DNA of 64,000 nucleotides from Heliocidaris tuberculata (Eukaryota > Echinodermata > Echinoidea > Camarodonta > Echinometridae): NCBI GenBank assembly GCA_025618425.1, contig CM046836.1, positions 24,311,030-24,375,029 of the forward strand, read 5' to 3'. Positions 35,353 to 64,000 of the stretch are shown piece after piece. The notes beneath the pieces were generated by a model that worked only from the letters and a program-made list of their open reading frames with translations, did no database searches and was not told the DNA's origin. How positions within the stretch are numbered: position 1 is the first letter of the stretch; each line of letters begins with the position of its first letter. The position numbers were made by a program, and so were the translations under genes.

Positions 35353-35611
35353 CAGGGGCGGCGCCAGGGTATTGTGATAGAAGGGGCAAGACGACCTAAA
35401 GATGACGTCATATTTTTTCTCCATTAAATAACAGGGGTAATATATAGAGTTATATGTTTAAGACCTCTCTTTTTAATACTCCTCTTTCTTCTTTCTTCCC
35501 TTTTCTTCCCTTTTCTTCCTCCTTTTCTTCTTTTTTCTTTTTTTTTTTCACCACTTGAAAAATCATAGGGGGGGCGGTCGCCCCCTCTGCCCCCCTGTAG
35601 CGCCGCCCCTG
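35353..35611. mobile_element. hAT-like MITE, CAGGGGCGGCGC family (copy 1)
   Basis: Ends CAGGGGCGGCGCCAGGGTAT and GTAGCGCCGCCCCTG. Perfect 8-bp duplication AGTGACTG (35345-35352, 35612-35619). The body has GATGACGTCATATTTTTTCT, a TTAAGACCTCTC segment and a long pyrimidine tract. No coding. Confidence 0.9.
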
Positions 35612-35813
35612 AGTGACTGTACCATTCATGAGATGCTTTACAACCCTTAATGTCCGTCAACTCTTAAAAGGAGCCGCTGGCGCAATAAGTTTGACCACTT
35701 TTTCATAACCTATTTTGTAGAGTGTTTTAATGTCCGTCAACATTATTTTTAGATCAGGGAGAGTCCTTTTCAAAGGAAAGCGATAAAATTTAAGCCCTCT
35801 TTAGTAACGAGGA

Positions 35814-35896: not shown

Positions 35897-36112
35897 CGTT
35901 TTATTTACCCAGGGTAGCCACTTCAGTTATCAAACTGCTCTTCCAGCGGGCCCTATTACCCTTCTCCATTCTAATATGCCGATCGCCTGGCTAGGAGGCA
36001 GAAGATCCCATTTTTGAAGTCCTTGGTATGACTCGGCCGGGGTTCGAACCCACGACCTCCCGTTCATGAGGCGGGCGCTCTAACCAACTGAGCCAACATG
36101 TCCGGTCTGTAA
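35814..36112 (-). mobile_element. tRNA-derived SINE with (TTA)n tail, minus strand
   Basis: On the minus strand: A box TGGCTCAGTTGG (36095-36084), then GAGCGCCCGCCTCATGAACG, then B box GGTTCGAACC (36050-36041), a tRNA-unrelated body and a 3' tail of about 26 ATT units (35895-35818). It looks close to a functional tRNA sequence but lacks a proper acceptor stem. Confidence 0.85.
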
Positions 36113-36276: not shown

Positions 36277-36530
36277 TCACAGGATGACACAACCCTGGTC
36301 GCTCTCCGAGTGCTTCATGACCCTGTCACCAACGATGGCGCATTGGTAGAGGGCTTCGAGCAGGACCAGGTGCTTCTCGGGGTCGTAGGCGTGGTTTTCG
36401 GTGGTGTAGTTCTCGAGCTCAAACACGTAATCGATGCGCTGCTGCTGCAGACCGGTTCGGAAAGCGCAAATCACCTCCTCTCGAACTTCAGGGTGTCTTC
36501 GATGGGTGATGACCACGATGGGTGGATAGC
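36277..36530 (-). CDS. GTPase exon 4: C-terminal part with CaaX box
   Basis: Acceptor TTCGCACAG. It reads YPPIVVITHRRHPEVREEVI, then LQQQRIDYVFELENYTTENH, LLEALYQCAIVGDRVM and the end SESDQGCVIL before TGA. CVIL at the extreme C-terminus fits the CaaX consensus (Cys, two aliphatics, Leu for geranylgeranyltransferase I). The segment before it is charged and flexible. Confidence 0.88.
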
Positions 36531-39500
36531 CTGTGCGAATATGAGATGGTTCATAATATTATGAATAATATTGTGAAAACCCAGGAGACAAAAGTTAAAT
36601 CACTAATGTCTCTTCTTTTAAAGGGAAAATCCACTCTGGTGCTTAGTTGACTTGAAGAAGGAAAAAAAAAATGAGAGGAAAATTGAGAGAAACAGAATAG
36701 TCAAAGTTTTAGCGAAATCCGATTAGAAATAAGAAAGTTATGAATTTATGAAGTTGTAATCAATCAAACACAACTTGATATCAGGGTGGATTACCCCTAT
36801 AATGGTCCTATTATGACTGCTTTTGGCATGACTGATCCCTCCCTAATACACAATGATTAATCATTTGGGGGACAGAGAGACACCCCCTCCCTCTTCTCCA
36901 AAACAAACTAGAAGAGAGATTGTAGGCTTCTGGTGTCAATATTTCTTATCCACAAGAAAACCTTTTAATGGCTGACTACATCCCCGTTTACAGTACAGTA
37001 GATCTGTGAGACTGAAGATCAGGGGCGGCGCCAGGGTATTTTGATAGGAGGGGCAAGACAAAATAAAGATGACGTCACATTTTTCTCCATTAAATAACAG
37101 GGGTAATATAGAGTTATATGTTTAAGACCTCTCTTTTTAATACTCCTCTTTCTTCTTTCTTCCCTTTTCTTCCTCCTTTTCTTCTTTTTTCTTCTTTTTT
37201 TTTCTTTTTTCACTACTTGAAAAATTATGGGGGGCGGTCGCCCCCTCTGCCCCCCCCTGTAGCGCCGCCCCCGCTGAAGATAAATGAGAGACGGAAATTT
37301 CATTTGGAGAACCTATGGTCACGAGGACAATGGTCTCGTGAAGCTTGAGATCCAAGTAGTTGTCGGGACGCCAACCTGCCAACGAGACAAAAATTTCGCT
37401 TGGCCGGGCCTTCGGTCTTATGCACCTCTGACCAAGCAGGAGACCCATGATTTTGTGAAAGGGGATGGGGCACAAGTCTTAAAATATTCAGACAAGTGTG
37501 CTTTTTTACTCTCAAACTCTCTGATAAGAAAGAAAAAAAAAACAACAAAACAACAAAAAAAAACAAAAAAAAAAAAAGATTTTTTTTTTTTCATTGTAGT
37601 GCCTTTGAAGACGAAAATCTGAAAAATGGCACATTTTTAGGATTGTATACCCAAGGTATACCTCTTTGGTTTCACAAGTGGCCTCAGACCGTTTTCTCTC
37701 CCCCCCCCCCCAAAAAAAAAAAGGCCAGTGTATGATTGACCTCTGGTCAACTGGGCTGTCCGCTTACATAAGCCAGTAAACAACATTGCTATTAATATCA
37801 TGACATGAAATCATTATTCTAAATTTGTCAATGTAAAAGTTTCCAAAGTTCAATGGCTATTTCCCAGGCTTATTATACGATTTTGCTCATTAGATTATTT
37901 TATAGTTGTGCAGATATCAGCAAGGACTTGCAAGATGAGTTTCAAAAATCTCATACTGAAAGGAAACGTATTTAGAACACTGTTCCTTGACCGAATATTA
38001 TGGTATGACGCTAAAAATATATTTTAAAAGCTGAAATAATGAAGGTGGTAATTTGCTTTTAATTCCATATGATTACGGTTATGATTCTCACCGATAAGAT
38101 GCAACATGAGGGGTCCTACCATCTTCTTTTCACCTTTATTTACCCTCCCCTTCTTTCTCGCTACGCTAATGGGGGCGGGGGAGGGGGTATACACTACGCC
38201 ACTTGCAAACAGATGTACTAGCCTACCTGTCATTGTCTTAATTTGGTCAATGAGTTCCTTGAGGTCTGTAGCTCTGAGGCTCAGGTTCAAAGCACTATTC
38301 ATAAAAAGAGCAAGGAGGATCAATAAAGACAAAAATGAAACACTCAATTGGTGGTTTTTTTTTTTTTTTTTTTTTTTTTGGTGAAAAGGGGTATAATGTC
38401 ACCATGATATTTTCATTTTCTTGTTTTATAACTCTATACACTTGGGACGCGTGATCCATTATTTCATGAGCAAGCACCTTCTTCATCTTCCTTCATTAAT
38501 TCAGACTAATGAATTCATCCAGTACACAAGCTAAACATGATAATAATGATTCTTTATTATTTTAGTATACCGTATACAAGCATTGACAGAACTAAATGGA
38601 AGTGAAAGCGATATTACAGATACTGATTTGCACCCCAACCCCCAACCGGGCATCATACGCCTATTCGAACACTTAATGAAATTCACCATTTAGATAACTT
38701 GCTGCTCCTTCAGCTTGAAGAATGGGGCTTACGTAGAAATCAAAAAAGTAAGTAATGCATTTACTACACTCTTAAAAAAGTTGGGCAAAAAAATGCCCAA
38801 TTTTTAACCAACACTGGGCAACATACTGTCCACACAACTTTTGGTTAAAATTTGCCCAACTGATGTTGGGCAATCCATTTACTATGTTGTTGGGCAAATT
38901 AAATTGCCCATCAGTTGGTGACCCATTAGATTTTACCCAACTCTACAATTGCCCAACTGTTGGTTATATTCTCAGTTGGGTAATTATTGCCCAACCAATC
39001 TTACCCAGTAGGATTGCCCAACCCTCTATTTGTTCAGCTGTTTGGTAACAAATATCATGTGGTTAGGCAAATTCAGCTGCCCAATTTATTGTTTCCTTTT
39101 TCCTCCAACCTAGGTTTAAAAAAATGAAATTTGCTTGTTACGTCCTTCTGGGTCTTAACCTAATCAATCCTAACCTATCCTATTTTAAGCTATCCTATCC
39201 TATACATGTATCTTAACCTATCCTATCCTAGTCCTATCCTATCCATTTAGTGCAAACTAGTGCAAGCTCTTATATACCCCTTATATGTTTTTTATGCATT
39301 CGGTGACAGTTAGTAAATCGGGCCACCCCAAACCATACGCTACTAAAAATTCATAAATATTCATATAAGTTTTTTCCCCAATATTGGGTAAAAATATTTA
39401 CCACAAGTTGGGCAAAAGCGAATTTCTAACCAACCATCAGTTACCCAACAAAATTTACCCAACTGGCAAAGGAAATGTGACAAAATTACACAACTACAGG

Positions 39501-42500
39501 GCAACAAGTACCCACCCCATAATTACCAAATACTGTTGGTAAATATATGCCCAATATTTAGGTAAAAAGTATTGACCAATATTGGTTACACCACTCGAGT
39601 GTCCAGTTGGTTATTAATAGCCCAGAATTGGGAATATTTGTAACCAACCAGCAGTTACCCAACTAAATTTGTCCAACATTTTAAGAGTGTATCAGGAAAA
39701 CATCTAAAAAGCAATTAATGCATTTACTATAAGGAAAACATCTAAAAAGTAAGTAATGCATTTACTATAAGGAAAACATCTTAAAATGTACCGAAGACTG
39801 GGGTTATGCTGGCCCCTTTGTCGTTGAGAGCTTGTAATTCTTTGTTGTGTCACTCAATGATAACTGTGTTTAGTATATGCCCCGCTGAATTCTTCATCCC
39901 ATCAAATGAGAAAATCAGCCATTTAGTTCCAAGTGAAAATGTTGTATCCCATCACAAAGCTAAATACATAAACGGTGTGAAGTGGATGGTCAACCACTTT
40001 TCGTGACGCAGTGGATGCATGGTGATTCTGAATATAATTGCATTGCTATATATTTGCATATTTATGAAATTTGGCTAGACCAGTAATTATTTCAATGATT
40101 GCTGGCTGGTATAAAGTGTATCAGCAATACTTTAAAGTAGTATGCACAGATCACTACAGCAATGCTTGGCTAGTCTTATCTGAACGAGATAATGACAAAA
40201 TAGCGTGTATTTATGAAGGGAAAAAATAGTTAGTTTTGGGGGTGGAAAGCTGAGTAATGCCTCTGCATAGTGATATAAAATATGTAAAATTATCAGTTAA
40301 TGTTTTATCACAGCAATCGAAAAAGTGAGAAGGTGGCTACAATTACCCCAGTCTGCCCTTACCTGACGACAAGCACCGCACAGTGGATCTTGCATTCCTT
40401 CTTCGATCTGAAAGTCCTCTCGAGCCCGGCTACGAGACGTCGAAGAAAACCAATGTCCCATTCAACTTCCTGTTCATCGTTGTACACCCCAGCTAGTTAT
40501 ATGGAAACGTAAACAACTTGAATGAATTAAATCCAGTAAACTATTTTAAGGTTTAAGCTAAGGATAATAATATATCTATAAATTCAATATCTATGGGGCG
40601 GTGTTACGAAGTGCATGGGCCAACTTAAAATTGAATATTTCTACAGGAGATTCAGGGCATGGTCTGGCCACTTGGATGGATGGCATAATTACAGTCTAAA
40701 AAAGCGGTTTATTAGAGTTTGAAAAAATAAAAAATAAAGTTTCAGTTACAACAATTAGCGCACTTTATTATATCTTAGACCTTTTTTTGACAGGGATTTT
40801 TATTTAGTTTTTTTTTTTTTGTTGTTGTTGTTGTTGTAAAAGTCGGCCATCGAATTCCAGAAGCATGACATTTTAAGAACTACTCAAAGTGTCTTTTTTA
40901 TACAAAAAAATTAGAAAAAAAAAGGAGAGCTATTTTTAGTGGGATTTTAAACATCTCTTCATTTCACTTCTGAAAAAAAAAGAAGGGCACCTTTAGTTAT
41001 GGAGTTATTTTAAAAATTGGGAGTGAACGTGCCCTTCGCCCCGCCGCCCCCCCCCCCTTCCCCCGGCTTCATCGCCCTGATAGTGAGAAAAAAACATGTC
41101 ATGACAAGTTTTTATTTACATTTATGTTATATAGTCGGTTTCTTCATAATCTTACAGGAACGTGAGACCCTTTTTATGGCGAGGTGCAGATCCAGGATGG
41201 CATAATTACCGGCAACACAAAACAAAGAGAACCATATATGAACTTCAAAAAGGTAGACTGGAAGATATTCGAACAACTATGTGATAAACAATTATCTAAT
41301 ATGGCTCCAAACCCAAATACAGAAGAACTTTACAACGAGTTCATGAACGTTGTCAAGAAAATTATCAAAGAAACAATACCATCGGTATAACTAAAAAGCA
41401 CCAACCCCCCAACCCATGGTGGAATGAAGAATGTCATAAAAGAATTAAAGAAAGAAATCAAGCCAAAAAATAAAGCTATTAAATATATGACAAAAGAATA
41501 TCCCTACGAATATCTAAAAAAAGAAAGCCCTAGCTCAGAGAACTATAAGAGAAGCAAAAAGAAAACACTGGGAAAAATACTGCTCCAAACTTAACAGACT
41601 AACTCCCACTTCAGACGTTTGGAAAATGATAAAAAGATACAACAATATTACGCCCCGAAAAGAAAGCATTCCAACAATACGAGAAAACAACGTAGAATAT
41701 ATTACGGACCAAGAAAAGGCGAACATAATTGCAGAAGAGTATGCTAACGTAACCAAACATAAAGTGGATCCCCACTCTCAATTATATACTAATGTAACAA
41801 AAAATATAAAGAAAGAAATGGATAAGGAATATTTTCCCTCGATTCTAAACGACGATTTTACCATTTCAGAATTAGAAGCAGCAATCGAACGTCAAAATAA
41901 TTTATCAACCCCTGGACACGATAAGATAAACTATCTGATTTACAAAAAACTTCCAAAATTAGCCAGACAAACCATGTTAAGATTGGCAAACCAAATATGG
42001 AAATCAGGAATAATAGCAAAACAATGTAAACACTCAATCCTTATGATACCCTATGGATAGATGGGCTTATATCAAATCTCAATGAACTAGGGATACGAGG
42101 TAATATACTCCAATTCATTCACAATTTCTTGAGTAACAGAACTTTCCAAGTAAAAATAGAAAATACCCTCTCCAACATAAAAAACATATAATGTCATTCC
42201 CCATCCCCTTTTTGCATATCAAAACCCCCTCTATATCCACTGAATTGACTAAATTGTTAAGAAAAAGTGATGACCCGAACGAAAAGAGACTAAAAAGTAT
42301 GGAACTTATGAATTCAAAATGAAATAACAGTCTCCATATATACAAAGATGGATCCAAATCCACATCGGGTACGTCATCCGCATCTTTTTATGTACCATAT
42401 TTCTCCATAAAAGAAGCCAAACGGCTTGCGAACTACACTACCAACTTTAGAGCCGAATTAGCTGCAATATCAACGGCCCTGTTATGGATAGAGCAAGTGA

Positions 42501-44577
42501 ACTTATACAAAGATGATGTAATTTCACAGACTCTCTTTCCGCACTTCTTTCCTTACAGGATCCCAAAGACAATTTCATAAACGACATCCTATACAATTAC
42601 ACCAAATTGTCATACAAGGGCATCCAAGTGTTTCTAGAATGGATCCCATCACATTGTGGAATCAAAGGCAATGAAGTAGCCGATCACCTGGCGAAACAAG
42701 CATTACATGAAGAAATTAGAATAAATAATAAATTTTGTATATCGGAAATGAAAGCTATATTAAAAACAGAAATATACAACAAATGGGAACAGAGAGGGAA
42801 AAATAATGCTGACGAAATAAACCAAAGACCATTTAAACCAACAATCCGACATAATTTTGAATGTGCACTGACCAGAGACAGTGAAGTTATTATTCGCAGA
42901 TTAAGATTATGCAATATTGGATTAAATGCAGATCCTGCTAAAATATGGACATCTGAATCAAACATGAAGAACAAAAACTGTAACCACTGCAATGTCCCTG
43001 AAACAATTGTACATTACCTAACAGAATGTCCCAAATACACAATAGAACGAGCAATGTTAATGATAGAAAGTAATATTGCTAACTCCAGTAAAATATTGGA
43101 ACTCCTAAAATCAACAGAAAACACAGGTTAAAGGGCTATAGTTAGCTTCGTTCGTAGAACGAAGCGTTTTAAGTCTTAGCCCCACCCCCTTCCTTTTTTT
43201 TTCTACTTCTTCTTCCTCTTCTTTTCTTTCCCTCCCTCCTTCCCTCTTCCTCCTTTAACTTATATTATTTCCCTCTCTTCCTCTCTCTCTCTCTCTCACA
43301 CACACAAACCGCACATCATTATAAATGCCCTAAAATGTTGTGGGTTTTTTTTAATATCTTTTGTATGTTTTTTTGTTTTTGATAAATGGGTGCAAATAAG
43401 CATAATCAAAGACGGCAGTAGCGGAGAGACTCAATCAAGATCAACCCATCAGTAGACCGAAAATCAGACACCAGAGTTCCCTAGGCCTCATCATGATCTG
43501 GCCGAGAAGACTGCGCAACATAACGCGCCGGTCTGGCAAGTAGGTATTTGTGGCCTATTGCATGTATTGACCGGATCAGTGGATCAGAGATCATACTCCT
43601 TCTTATTACCAAAAATAAATAGACCATACCGGTAATTAAGAGGAAAAAATAGAAATTTATGTACATGATTTATAAAGAGCATATAAACCACAGATGCATT
43701 AAATTGATAAAAATAATAATATAATAAAAGTAAAAGGCGTAAATATTCTTATCATATGAATGAACGCCGACAACATTAAACAACAACAACAACAACAACA
43801 GGGTTCTGTAAGAGGGGTCACAATTCTGAAAATTTACTGGAACCCCCCCCCCCCCAAAAAAAAAGTCACATTTCATATTTCAAAAATATTTGAAGACCAA
43901 AAACAAAAAATAAAAATGATATTACTAAGATTTTTTTTTCTTTTGCCTCTTTGGGCTAAAAATTTGAAAGGAGTATAACAATAACAGAAATAACAGCCAT
44001 TTATGCGTTCTATAAAAGACGTACTACTAGCAAAGTATATAAAGTGGATGTCTTTCTTTTTAACTTTTTAAAATTCTTTCCTTCCTTTTCCTCCTTTCTT
44101 TTTCTTTCTTTCTCCGTCTTTTTTTTTTTTTTTTTTTTTTTTTGTCGTGGAAATTTTTAGGGGTGCAGCCTCCAAAGCCCCCCCCCCCCCCCACCAGAAC
44201 GCCAGTGCCCGTCACATGATTAACTCACAAATCTGATGACCAAGTTCAACCATGAACTCTCCTCCAAGACTCCTCATCCCTCGATTATCAACCATTGTAA
44301 TCTTCTCCGTCATGGGGAAAGCATTGCGGGCAAGCGTCTTCGAGGCCTCGCTGGCAAACCCCTCGGGGGCCAAACTCTCCCATAAATTCCCCGTGGCGTA
44401 GGCCGTCGAGTTGATCAACGCCGATTTGCCGACGCCCGTCGGGCCGAAGAGCCCGATTCGGAAAACTGGCGGAGGTTGGGTGGGGCGATCTCGTGCAAGA
44501 CGAAAAGTCGAACCTGGACGATAACTTGCTATGGCGTCTTTCAGTTCGTTGATTCGATGTTGTAGTCGATCAGACAT
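36277..44577 (-). CDS. Four-exon P-loop GTPase with CaaX box (whole gene span)
   Basis: Exons 44577-44229, 40492-40363, 38294-38227 and 36530-36277 join in phases 1, 2, 1 into exactly 801 nt, or 266 residues and a TGA. Walker A GPTGVGKS is at residues 45-52, preceded by the strand FRIGLF. DNRG (97-100) is the DxxG motif. VVITHRRHP near 188-196 stands where an NKxD/THxD guanine-specificity motif is expected but lacks the Asp. FELENYTTENH is the later strand-loop typical of this group. The protein ends CVIL, a CaaX box with Leu, predicting geranylgeranylation and membrane attachment. It belongs to a family of small induced-GTPase-like proteins in marine invertebrates and fish; I cannot name the subfamily. 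Introns carry a LINE, repeats and MITEs. Confidence 0.85.
36618..36803. mobile_element. Internally deleted TTAAAGG-family MITE (copy F)
   Basis: Left TTAAAGGGAAAATCCACTCT, right CAGGGTGGATTACCCCTATA, with only part of the arms (TAAGAAAGTTATGAATTTAT, TGTAATCAATCAAACACAA) left. Lies in the last intron of the GTPase gene. Confidence 0.72.
37020..37273. mobile_element. hAT-like MITE, CAGGGGCGGCGC family (copy 2)
   Basis: Same orientation and near-identical body to copy 1. Perfect 8-bp duplication CTGAAGAT (37012-37019, 37274-37281). It lies in the last intron of the GTPase gene. Confidence 0.9.
38227..38294 (-). CDS. GTPase exon 3
   Basis: 68 nt between the acceptor CTCTTTTTATGAATAG and donor GTAGGC. 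It encodes ALNLSLRATDLKELIDQIKT and MT. With split codons on both sides the join reads LVVS-ALNLSL and KTMTG-YPPIVV. Confidence 0.78.
38765..39691. mobile_element. Composite GGGCAA/TTGCCC repeat element with TACACTCTTAAAA ends
   Basis: Terminal inverted repeats TACACTCTTAAAA (38765-38777) and TTTTAAGAGTGTA (39679-39691), possibly with a TA target. The body is dominated by short words TTGGGCAA, TGCCCAAC, TTACCCAAC in both orientations. It interrupts a 38-bp tandem repeat. Non-coding. Located in the second intron of the GTPase gene. Confidence 0.65.
39692..39788 (+). repeat. 38-bp tandem repeat
   Basis: Unit AGGAAAACATCTAAAAAG ... TAATGCATTTACTATA, about 2.4 copies here. A partial unit (AAAAAGTAAGTAATGCATTT) lies just left of the element at 38745-38766. 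Confidence 0.75.
40363..40492 (-). CDS. GTPase exon 2
   Basis: Acceptor ATAACTAG, donor GTAAGG (40362-40357), 130 nt. It reads GVYNDEQEVEWDIGFLRRLV, then AGLERTFRSKKECKIHCAVL and VV. The end CAVLVV is a hydrophobic strand of the G domain. The exon is too short to stand out alone and was found by phase matching. Confidence 0.8.
41184..43140 (+). pseudogene. I-superfamily-like LINE remnant (endonuclease linker, RT fragments, RNase H)
   Basis: In order: the endonuclease-RT linker (TKQREPYMNFKKVDWKIFEQ at about 41211), RT fingers (41620-42050: TISELEAAIERQNN, TPGHDKINYLIYKKLP), a deletion, then LWIDGLISNLNELGI in another frame. RNase H follows (IYKDGSKSTSG, FRAELAAISTALLWI, then FTDSLSALLSLQDPK, EWIPSHCGIKGNEVADHLAK) and a terminal C-x2-C...H-x4-C knuckle (CNHCNVPETIVHYLTEC). 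Stops and frameshifts occur at about 41388, 42058, 42190 and 42520. The element is dead and lies in sense orientation opposite to the host GTPase gene, in its first intron. Confidence 0.85.
42607..43131 (+). pseudogene. RNase H C-terminal part and zinc knuckle of the LINE
   Basis: An open segment of 174 residues. EWIPSHCGIKGNEVADHLAK holds the last catalytic region of RNase H (the HCG...N..AD pattern). The C-terminal knuckle is C-x2-C-x9-C-like with H. RNase H downstream of RT plus this knuckle points to I/Tad-related LINE clades. Confidence 0.8.
44229..44577 (-). CDS. GTPase exon 1: start and G-domain N-half
   Basis: ATG at 44577-44575 in the context GGACAATG (A at -3). It opens 116 codons with an N-terminal coiled-coil-like helix (SDRLQHRINELKDAIASY), a Pro/Arg linker, GLFGPTGVGKSALINS, and MVDNRGMRSLGGEF. 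Donor GTGAGT at 44228-44223. Reading beyond the donor gives only two or three extra residues before a stop. Confidence 0.9.
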
Positions 44578-62542: not shown

Positions 62543-64000
62543 ACGTTGCTTATATAGCGCATATCACTTACATAAGAAAGTCCCTATGCGCTTAAAGAAA
62601 ATATATAAAGAGATAGGTCAGAATAGAAAACAAACATGCCTGGTAGATGGAGTTATAACAATAAAAACCAAATAATTACTTACAAAGAATCAAATAATTA
62701 ATTACAAAGAATCAATTAATTACTTACAGAGAATCAAATAATTACAAAAAATAATTTAGTAAAGTAGACGATGAGAAGATTTTGTGTATCACTGAAACTA
62801 CCAGACAGCCTAAGGAAATGATCAAATATCAACTGACAAAGAGGTATGTTTTCAACAGAGTCTTGAATGACTCTGTTGAATTTGCCTGTTTTACAAGGAG
62901 GGACTTGTCTTTTGATCTTAATCTTCTTGGAGGGGTATATTTTACAATGAGGTCTTGCAGATAAGAAGGAGCTGTACCCTGTAAACAATTATATGTCAGT
63001 AATAAGATTTTATATTTGATGCGGGATTTAACTGGGAGCCAGTGTTATTCATGAAGTATGGGAGTTTAATGATCTTTGCGTTTCGTTCTGGTGATAAGCC
63101 TTGCCGCTGAATTTTGGATTCTTTGTATTTTAATGATATGAACATCCGGAAGGCCGTACAATAAACTGTTACAAAAATCTATGCGAGATATCACTAGGGC
63201 ATGAACTAATTGTTTGGTAGCTTCAGTGGATAGAAATTGGCGAATTTGCCCAATTTTGTGGAGAGCGAATGAACTACTTTTACATATATTATTAATCTGA
63301 GTAGTCATTATAAGTTTTTTATCCAGTTGAACACCAAAGTTTCTTGCAGCACTAACACATCTGACAGAAGTATTATCTATATTTATGCAGTCAATATTGT
63401 CACTGTTCCTGAACTTGCTAGTAAAATGAAGAACCTCAGTCTTGCTGCTATTCAACTTCAGTCCATTCTGATTTGACAAACTTATTACATCTTGGACACA
63501 CACTTGAAGTTTGGAAATAGTATCAGGCTGCTCACTATTTTTCAGCGTTATGTACATTTGGGTATCGTCAGCATACATCATACATCTGATATTGTGGTGT
63601 GTGATAATATCCTGGAGAGGAGCAGCATACAGATTGAAGGCTAGAGGCCCGACAACAGAACCTTGAGGTACCTCTTACCTAGTAAAGTAAGTCTGTGACT
63701 GTGATTCACCTATGACTACAGAATGGTTCCTGTTCTGGAAGTATGACTGAAACCATTACATACAAGTTATTTTCTGACAAATACTCCTGCATCTGTAAGG
63801 TCACCAGTCTCTCAATCGTCTTCCTTATTAGGAATGGAATATGAGCTATAGGTCTATAACTTCGTAGGACCTCATGGTCCAGCTTGTCAGCCTTAATCAA
63901 TGGAGAAATGTTAGCATGTTTTAGCACATCTGGAAAACAACCATCGCGCAACGAAATATTAGCAATACGCGTGATTAACTCATGCAAACACTTCTTCACC
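62510..64000 (-). pseudogene. L2/CR1-like LINE, 3' part, runs off the right edge
   Basis: Minus strand from the edge: RT fingers (ISPLIKADKL, LRSYRPIAHIPFLIRKTIER), a deletion of the palm block with the first Asp, WFQSYFQNRNHSVVIG, an in-frame TAG near 63680, VPQGSVVGPLAFNLY, MMYADDTQMYI (catalytic YADD), and NGLKLNSSKTEVLHF. Then the tail HWLPVKSRIKYKILLLTYNC, GTAPSYLQDLIVKYTPPRRL, and KSLLVKQANSTESFKTLLKT. The 3' UTR ends GCGCTATATAAGCAACGTTC and (ATT)n at 62540-62511, the typical CR1/L2 tail. Several stops; not active. Confidence 0.85.
63066..63660 (-). pseudogene. RT palm and thumb of the L2/CR1-like LINE
   Basis: Longest intact stretch of the element. PQGSVVGPLAFNLYAAPLQD and MMYADDTQMYI are RT motifs B' and C. 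The downstream LSTEATKQLVHALVISRIDF and NSLLYGLPDVHIIKIQRIQN are the thumb signature of CR1/L2 proteins. Confidence 0.85.

Follow-up and report, generated by a model that had tools for sequence, protein, structure and literature searches.

A single-domain GTPase gene with a CaaX end

In a 64,000-nucleotide stretch of the genome of the sea urchin Heliocidaris tuberculata (GenBank assembly GCA_025618425.1, contig CM046836.1, forward-strand positions 24,311,030 to 24,375,029; hereafter the window), we identify what is, judged from its sequence, an intact four-exon gene for a single-domain P-loop GTPase. The gene lies on the minus strand, spans 8,301 bp and encodes a 266-residue protein with the motifs GPTGVGKS (residues 45–52), DNRG (97–100) and THRR (191–194) and a C-terminal CVIL. 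Exon 1 (44229..44577) encodes residues 1–116 and the first base of codon 117, and contains an N-terminal helix, the P-loop, a conserved threonine (Thr81) and DNRG. Exon 2 (40363..40492) carries codons 117–160 and exon 3 (38227..38294) codons 160–183, each with a split codon at both ends. Exon 4 (36277..36530) supplies codons 183–266 and the stop, including β5 with THRR in place of NKxD, β6 followed by E222-N223-Y-T, the C-terminal helix and CVIL; strand positions are those of the predicted structure of the relative P0001 (Lytechinus pictus LOC129269960, 266 residues). All four exons are bordered by GT/AG, with ATTT/gtgagt at 44229, ag/CTGG at 40492 and TCAG/gtaagg at 40363, ag/TGCT at 38294 and ACAG/gtaggc at 38227, and ag/GCTA at 36530, and their phases join into 266 codons followed by TGA at 36277. 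An initial annotation made from the letters had proposed the junctions 44229/40492, 40363/38294 and 38227/36530, and these are exact, as are the reading frame and motifs that it listed.

P0001 covers 100% of the window protein with 213 of 266 residues identical and no gaps, and P0002 (Strongylocentrotus purpuratus LOC115923871) is 75% identical. Searching the window with relatives by tblastn recovered the same exon pieces, which together with the equal-length, ungapped P0001 excludes a chance reading frame; the other tblastn matches of the window protein were at E 3 or weaker, with no second copy within the window. Two of the exon borders also show up in automated gene models of relatives, with the insert of P0002 placed immediately behind Gly183, whose codon straddles exons 3 and 4, and with P0010 alignable from residue 117 onward, the start of exon 2. 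The P0002 insert is itself probably spurious, as that public model seems to run into the start of intron 3. One residue sits oddly, Ser117, whose codon is split by the first join; the 12 remaining full-length echinoid proteins have Ala (nine), Gly (two) or Val (one) at this position. This could hint that exon 1 and exons 2–4 come from different genes or that exons are missing, but P0001 keeps the same length across all joins, the borders are GT/AG and each exon piece is single-copy in the window, making such an error very improbable. The closest AATAAA downstream of the gene is at 35905, and no TATAWA occurs within 500 bp upstream of the ATG.

The gene belongs to a family that is shared by echinoids and frogs and so far lacks a name. 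A single-sequence search returned 24 proteins with E no greater than 0.01, those named coming from echinoids (Lytechinus, Strongylocentrotus and Diadema) and frogs, and a wider profile search gave 407 matches, among the best 120 of which the named members are echinoids and frogs, a set that does not bear on fishes, amphioxus or molluscs. Among the matches listed, frog species have at least several copies each. A profile of ten echinoid proteins, scored against the 7999 candidates sharing most words, found 18 proteins with E of at most 1, of which 15 are named echinoid and none is a named frog protein; the echinoid–frog link thus rests on the single-sequence and wider profile searches. A quick tree places all 13 echinoid rows, the window protein among them, on one side of a branch with a Shimodaira–Hasegawa-like approximate likelihood ratio (SH-aLRT) of 100, at which the program warned of long branches meeting, and the proteins nearest to the window protein are echinoid. 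Most named relatives are annotated as uncharacterized or hypothetical, and a literature search by title and start of abstract, outside subscription papers, found no description of the family.

A possibly relocated acid in the nucleotide site

The protein has the general features of P-loop TRAFAC GTPases, namely a GxxxxGK[ST] G1, a switch I Thr, a DxxG G3 and, in the P0001 model, a G-domain fold, and it matches Pfam MMR_HSR1 at 23.7 bits (cut-off 21.9). The [NT]KxD G4 of TRAFAC-type GTPases is absent from it. Among 121 aligned proteins, 11 of them echinoid and 110 other, 3 keep Asp at the G4 Asp position (194), 2 have Glu there, and 13 have Lys at the G4 Lys position (192); the altered G4 noted in the initial annotation is real and, on this alignment, is a trait of the whole family and not a peculiarity of the window protein. 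Elsewhere the site is strongly conserved, with DNRG invariant, Thr81 kept in 120/121, position 222 acidic in 120/121 (114 Glu, 6 Asp) and Asn223 present in all 121. Two of the 13 echinoid proteins carry the G4 Asp together with Glu222: P0009 and P0125, the latter in addition to the three aligned cases. The P0001 model (predicted local distance difference test, pLDDT, 84.7; predicted TM-score, pTM, 0.85) places a strand at 187–191, at the start of G4, and another at 218–221, and the E222-N223 pair directly after this β6 is predicted to occupy the G5 position.

The arrangement may have a counterpart in the Toc GTPases of chloroplast import. Fold searches with the P0001 model put GIMAP and Toc GTPases at the top by narrow margins, and Toc33/Toc34 gave the highest VIA-align Z, over about 200 aligned residues. 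Toc34 likewise has a G4 that begins TH without an Asp, followed by E-N at G5 (THAQ and IENS; its letters match the solved chain 1h65). With both profiles, E222-N223 pairs with Toc34 E210-N211 and T191-H192 with T162-H163, in two of six runs, these being local alignments stretched to full length; default local alignments covered the P-loop region only and global runs lacked the pairing. Beyond the P-loop region the sequence match is not confident (hhalign default), and with the N-terminal half removed Toc34 scored below the shuffle maxima (11.9 v 17.1 and 13.0 v 19.0). Toc33 and Toc34 also differ in being tail-anchored by a transmembrane segment and not prenylated. Glu210 of Toc34 reportedly reads the guanine; the available parts of PMC12973003, PMC7056273 and PMC3042988 hold no statement of this contact.

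The initial annotation had suggested relaxed guanine specificity, that is, a protein which without its G4 Asp would bind ATP or any NTP. Asp is indeed missing at 194 in 118/121 proteins and Lys is rare at 192, but an acid that could replace it stands at G5 in all but one protein, beside an invariant Asn. Absence of NKXD is moreover common among guanine binders: in the available part of a survey of 298 guanine-binding complexes, which includes proteins that are not G domains, 129 (43.3%) lack NKXD and 61 (20.5%) use another Asp or Glu (PMC11594714). Given these numbers, the near-invariant E-N and the likeness to Toc34, we consider relaxed or changed specificity unlikely and not the best reading, and hold with moderate confidence that guanine reading would be retained through Glu222. 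A pseudo-GTPase, a folded G domain that neither hydrolyses nor binds nucleotide and serves as a prenylated scaffold, seems similarly doubtful. It would fit the eroded G4 and the lack of a catalytic Gln after DNRG, where residue 101 is M, C, F or Y in 117/121 (Met in the window protein; Cys, Phe or Tyr in most frog relatives). Yet the P-loop, Thr81 and DNRG are conserved beyond what a scaffold would need, and a hydrophobic residue after G3 is usual in HAS-type GTPases.

Conservation and possible exchange of a predicted C-terminal anchor

Membrane attachment through the CaaX box, as the initial annotation had predicted, gains strong support from sequence conservation. We compared the C termini of 122 full-length proteins, 13 echinoid (the window protein included) and 109 others, of which the named ones are frog, leaving out the fragments P0005, P0010, P0012, P0014, P0127, P0128 and P0129 and the much longer P0025 and P0026. 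Orthologues running past CVIL or lacking its Cys had been named in advance as evidence to the contrary; all 13 echinoid proteins end in CxxX (CTIL in five, CVIL and CSIQ in two each, and CAIL, CNIL, CTIQ and CILL in one each), as do all three left-out fragments that reach the C terminus (CTIL, CVIL and CLIL). Of the two long proteins, P0026 has the Cys end and P0025 does not. Among the 109 other relatives, 55 have Cys at position −4, and none of the remaining eleven of the last twelve positions has it in more than 2; 52 of these 55 finish in L, Q, S or M. Under CaaX rules a terminal Leu suggests geranylgeranyl and a terminal Gln farnesyl, and the echinoid proteins end in Leu in ten cases and Gln in three.

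Many of the 54 relatives without the Cys end in aromatic or basic segments. Tails of the non-echinoid relatives (P0015–P0130) alternate between CaaX and such ends (FSWF, FWLF, FWWLFG), as if anchors had been interchanged repeatedly, and the quick tree requires at least 27 changes of tail state among the 109 proteins, part of which may stem from gene-model error. This turnover, with roughly half of the non-echinoid relatives lacking the Cys, is what could be expected if CxxX were unused for lipidation and the Cys kept for another reason or by descent. Against that stand the enrichment of Cys at −4 alone, the restricted final residue, and aromatic or basic ends in many Cys-less relatives that could bind membrane too; we therefore regard an unused box as quite unlikely, and the protein probably sits on membranes via a lipid added to its tail.

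Relation to known GTPase families

By sequence, the window protein alone matched no solved structure below E 0.19, and the best match of the family profile was EngB (E 9.8e-4). The best of four profile matches tried was the G domain of IFI44 (probability 95.2 and 94.4), for which, here and below, the letters used are unverified. This match stood above shuffles both with and without the N-terminal half, and its confident alignment extends over residues 42–255 with the echinoid profile and 42–91 with the wide profile; deleting the N-terminal half leaves the (E/G)NY motif that follows β6, and the next helix, still aligned. The window protein differs from IFI44 in having no N-terminal TLDc domain (no Pfam match at E up to 10, with P0001 of the same length and start), in its CaaX end, and in reading THRR where IFI44 has TKVD and ENY where it has GNY, which may mean a shift of the acid from the G4 to the G5 position relative to IFI44. 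Oyster IFI44L carries TLDc together with MMR_HSR1, according to the part of PMC11682996 available.

In the runs lacking the N-terminal half, H-Ras did not reach the shuffle maxima (11.6 v 17.7 and 21.2 v 21.8); for GIMAP2 one score exceeded its maximum and the other did not (16.4 v 13.9 and 15.9 v 17.4). GIMAP (IMAP/AIG1) proteins were the best Foldseek matches, at low TM-scores, and the G4 of GIMAP2, THKE, resembles the THKT common in frog relatives, but GIMAP2 has N-N at G5 where the sea-urchin and frog family has E-N. With AIG1 (PF04548) the window protein had no match up to E 10, and 2 of 20 family members matched weakly (best E 0.032). Some GIMAPs use hydrophobic tails, and some GBPs are CaaX-ended immune GTPases; human GBP2 ends in CNIL, the end of P0009. 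GBPs are proteins of about 67 kDa with a helical stalk, and the window protein has no Pfam GBP match at E up to 10. We reject membership of the GBPs or other large GTPases, to which the initial annotation had likened the protein: it has 266 residues in all and a single G domain without a dynamin-type stalk, the P0001 model ends in one helix (233–260), with nothing resembling a long helical stalk or an effector domain beyond the G domain, and of 20 family members four gave weak matches to the large-GTPase model IIGP (best E 0.042) and three to Dynamin_N (best E 0.23).

Introns and mobile elements

Intron 1 (40493..44228, minus strand, as are the other introns) holds a broken stretch resembling a non-LTR retrotransposon (long interspersed nuclear element, LINE) at about 41166–43131 on the plus strand, opposite to the gene; its extent was judged by eye from broken frames, and it includes an RNase H match (PF00075, E 6.9e-7) in 42517–43128. 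Intron 2 (38295..40362) holds a 923-bp element resembling a non-autonomous DNA transposon (38767–39689, minus strand). Its terminal inverted repeats (CACTCTTAAAA) are perfect over 11 bp, the element is flanked by TA at either end, and it carries internal repeats rich in TTGGGCAA. It is embedded in a run of 38-bp direct repeats, the other units of which resemble an empty site. Together the two amount to about 2.9 kb of recognisable transposon in the introns, with much simple repeat besides, so that the 8 kb of transposons in the initial annotation overstates their content. Similar-reading frames (RYRG, EGATAPP or RGRPPP, FQVVKK), found by eye at 35450–35656 and, within intron 3 (36531..38226), at 37137–37312, both on the minus strand, are apparently copies of one dispersed repeat. 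A Pfam scan of 20 of the 38 window frames of at least 110 residues gave only reverse transcriptase and RNase H above cut-off; the reverse-transcriptase match (PF00078, E 6.9e-13) lies in an open frame at 63069–63674 on the minus strand.

A proposed membrane-bound GTPase

Taken as a whole, the explanation we favour, at even chances, is a prenylated single-domain GTPase that reads guanine through Glu222 and acts as a defence-related membrane switch or scaffold. Prenylation of Cys263 would place the protein at work on the cytoplasmic face of a membrane. Guanine nucleotide would still be bound, its base read by Glu222 of ENYT without a G4 Asp, as by Glu210 of Toc34. Because Met and not a catalytic Gln follows DNRG, GTP hydrolysis would probably need dimerisation or a partner, as Toc, septin and GIMAP proteins do. 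Its likeliest role would lie in cell-autonomous defence, as a GTP switch or a scaffold bound to membranes. This last step is the weakest and is a guess by analogy, drawn from the interferon-induced IFI44 as the best profile match tried, the immune GIMAPs among the top folds and the several copies per frog species.

A broader account is more tentative, and we would put it somewhat short of even: an IFI44-related, prenylated family of echinoids and frogs in which the guanine-reading acid has shifted from the G4 Asp to Glu of ENYT at G5, an arrangement that would parallel Toc34 in animals, and in which anchors have been swapped repeatedly between CaaX and aromatic tails in a multiplied, probably immune, gene family. 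If true, a whole family would have its base-specificity residue in a new place, and G4 alone would be poor grounds for judging a G protein relaxed or dead. A small, lipid-anchored IFI44-like GTPase without TLDc would offer a study system for IFI44 biochemistry, and the unnamed frog expansion would become a candidate set of cell-autonomous defence genes.
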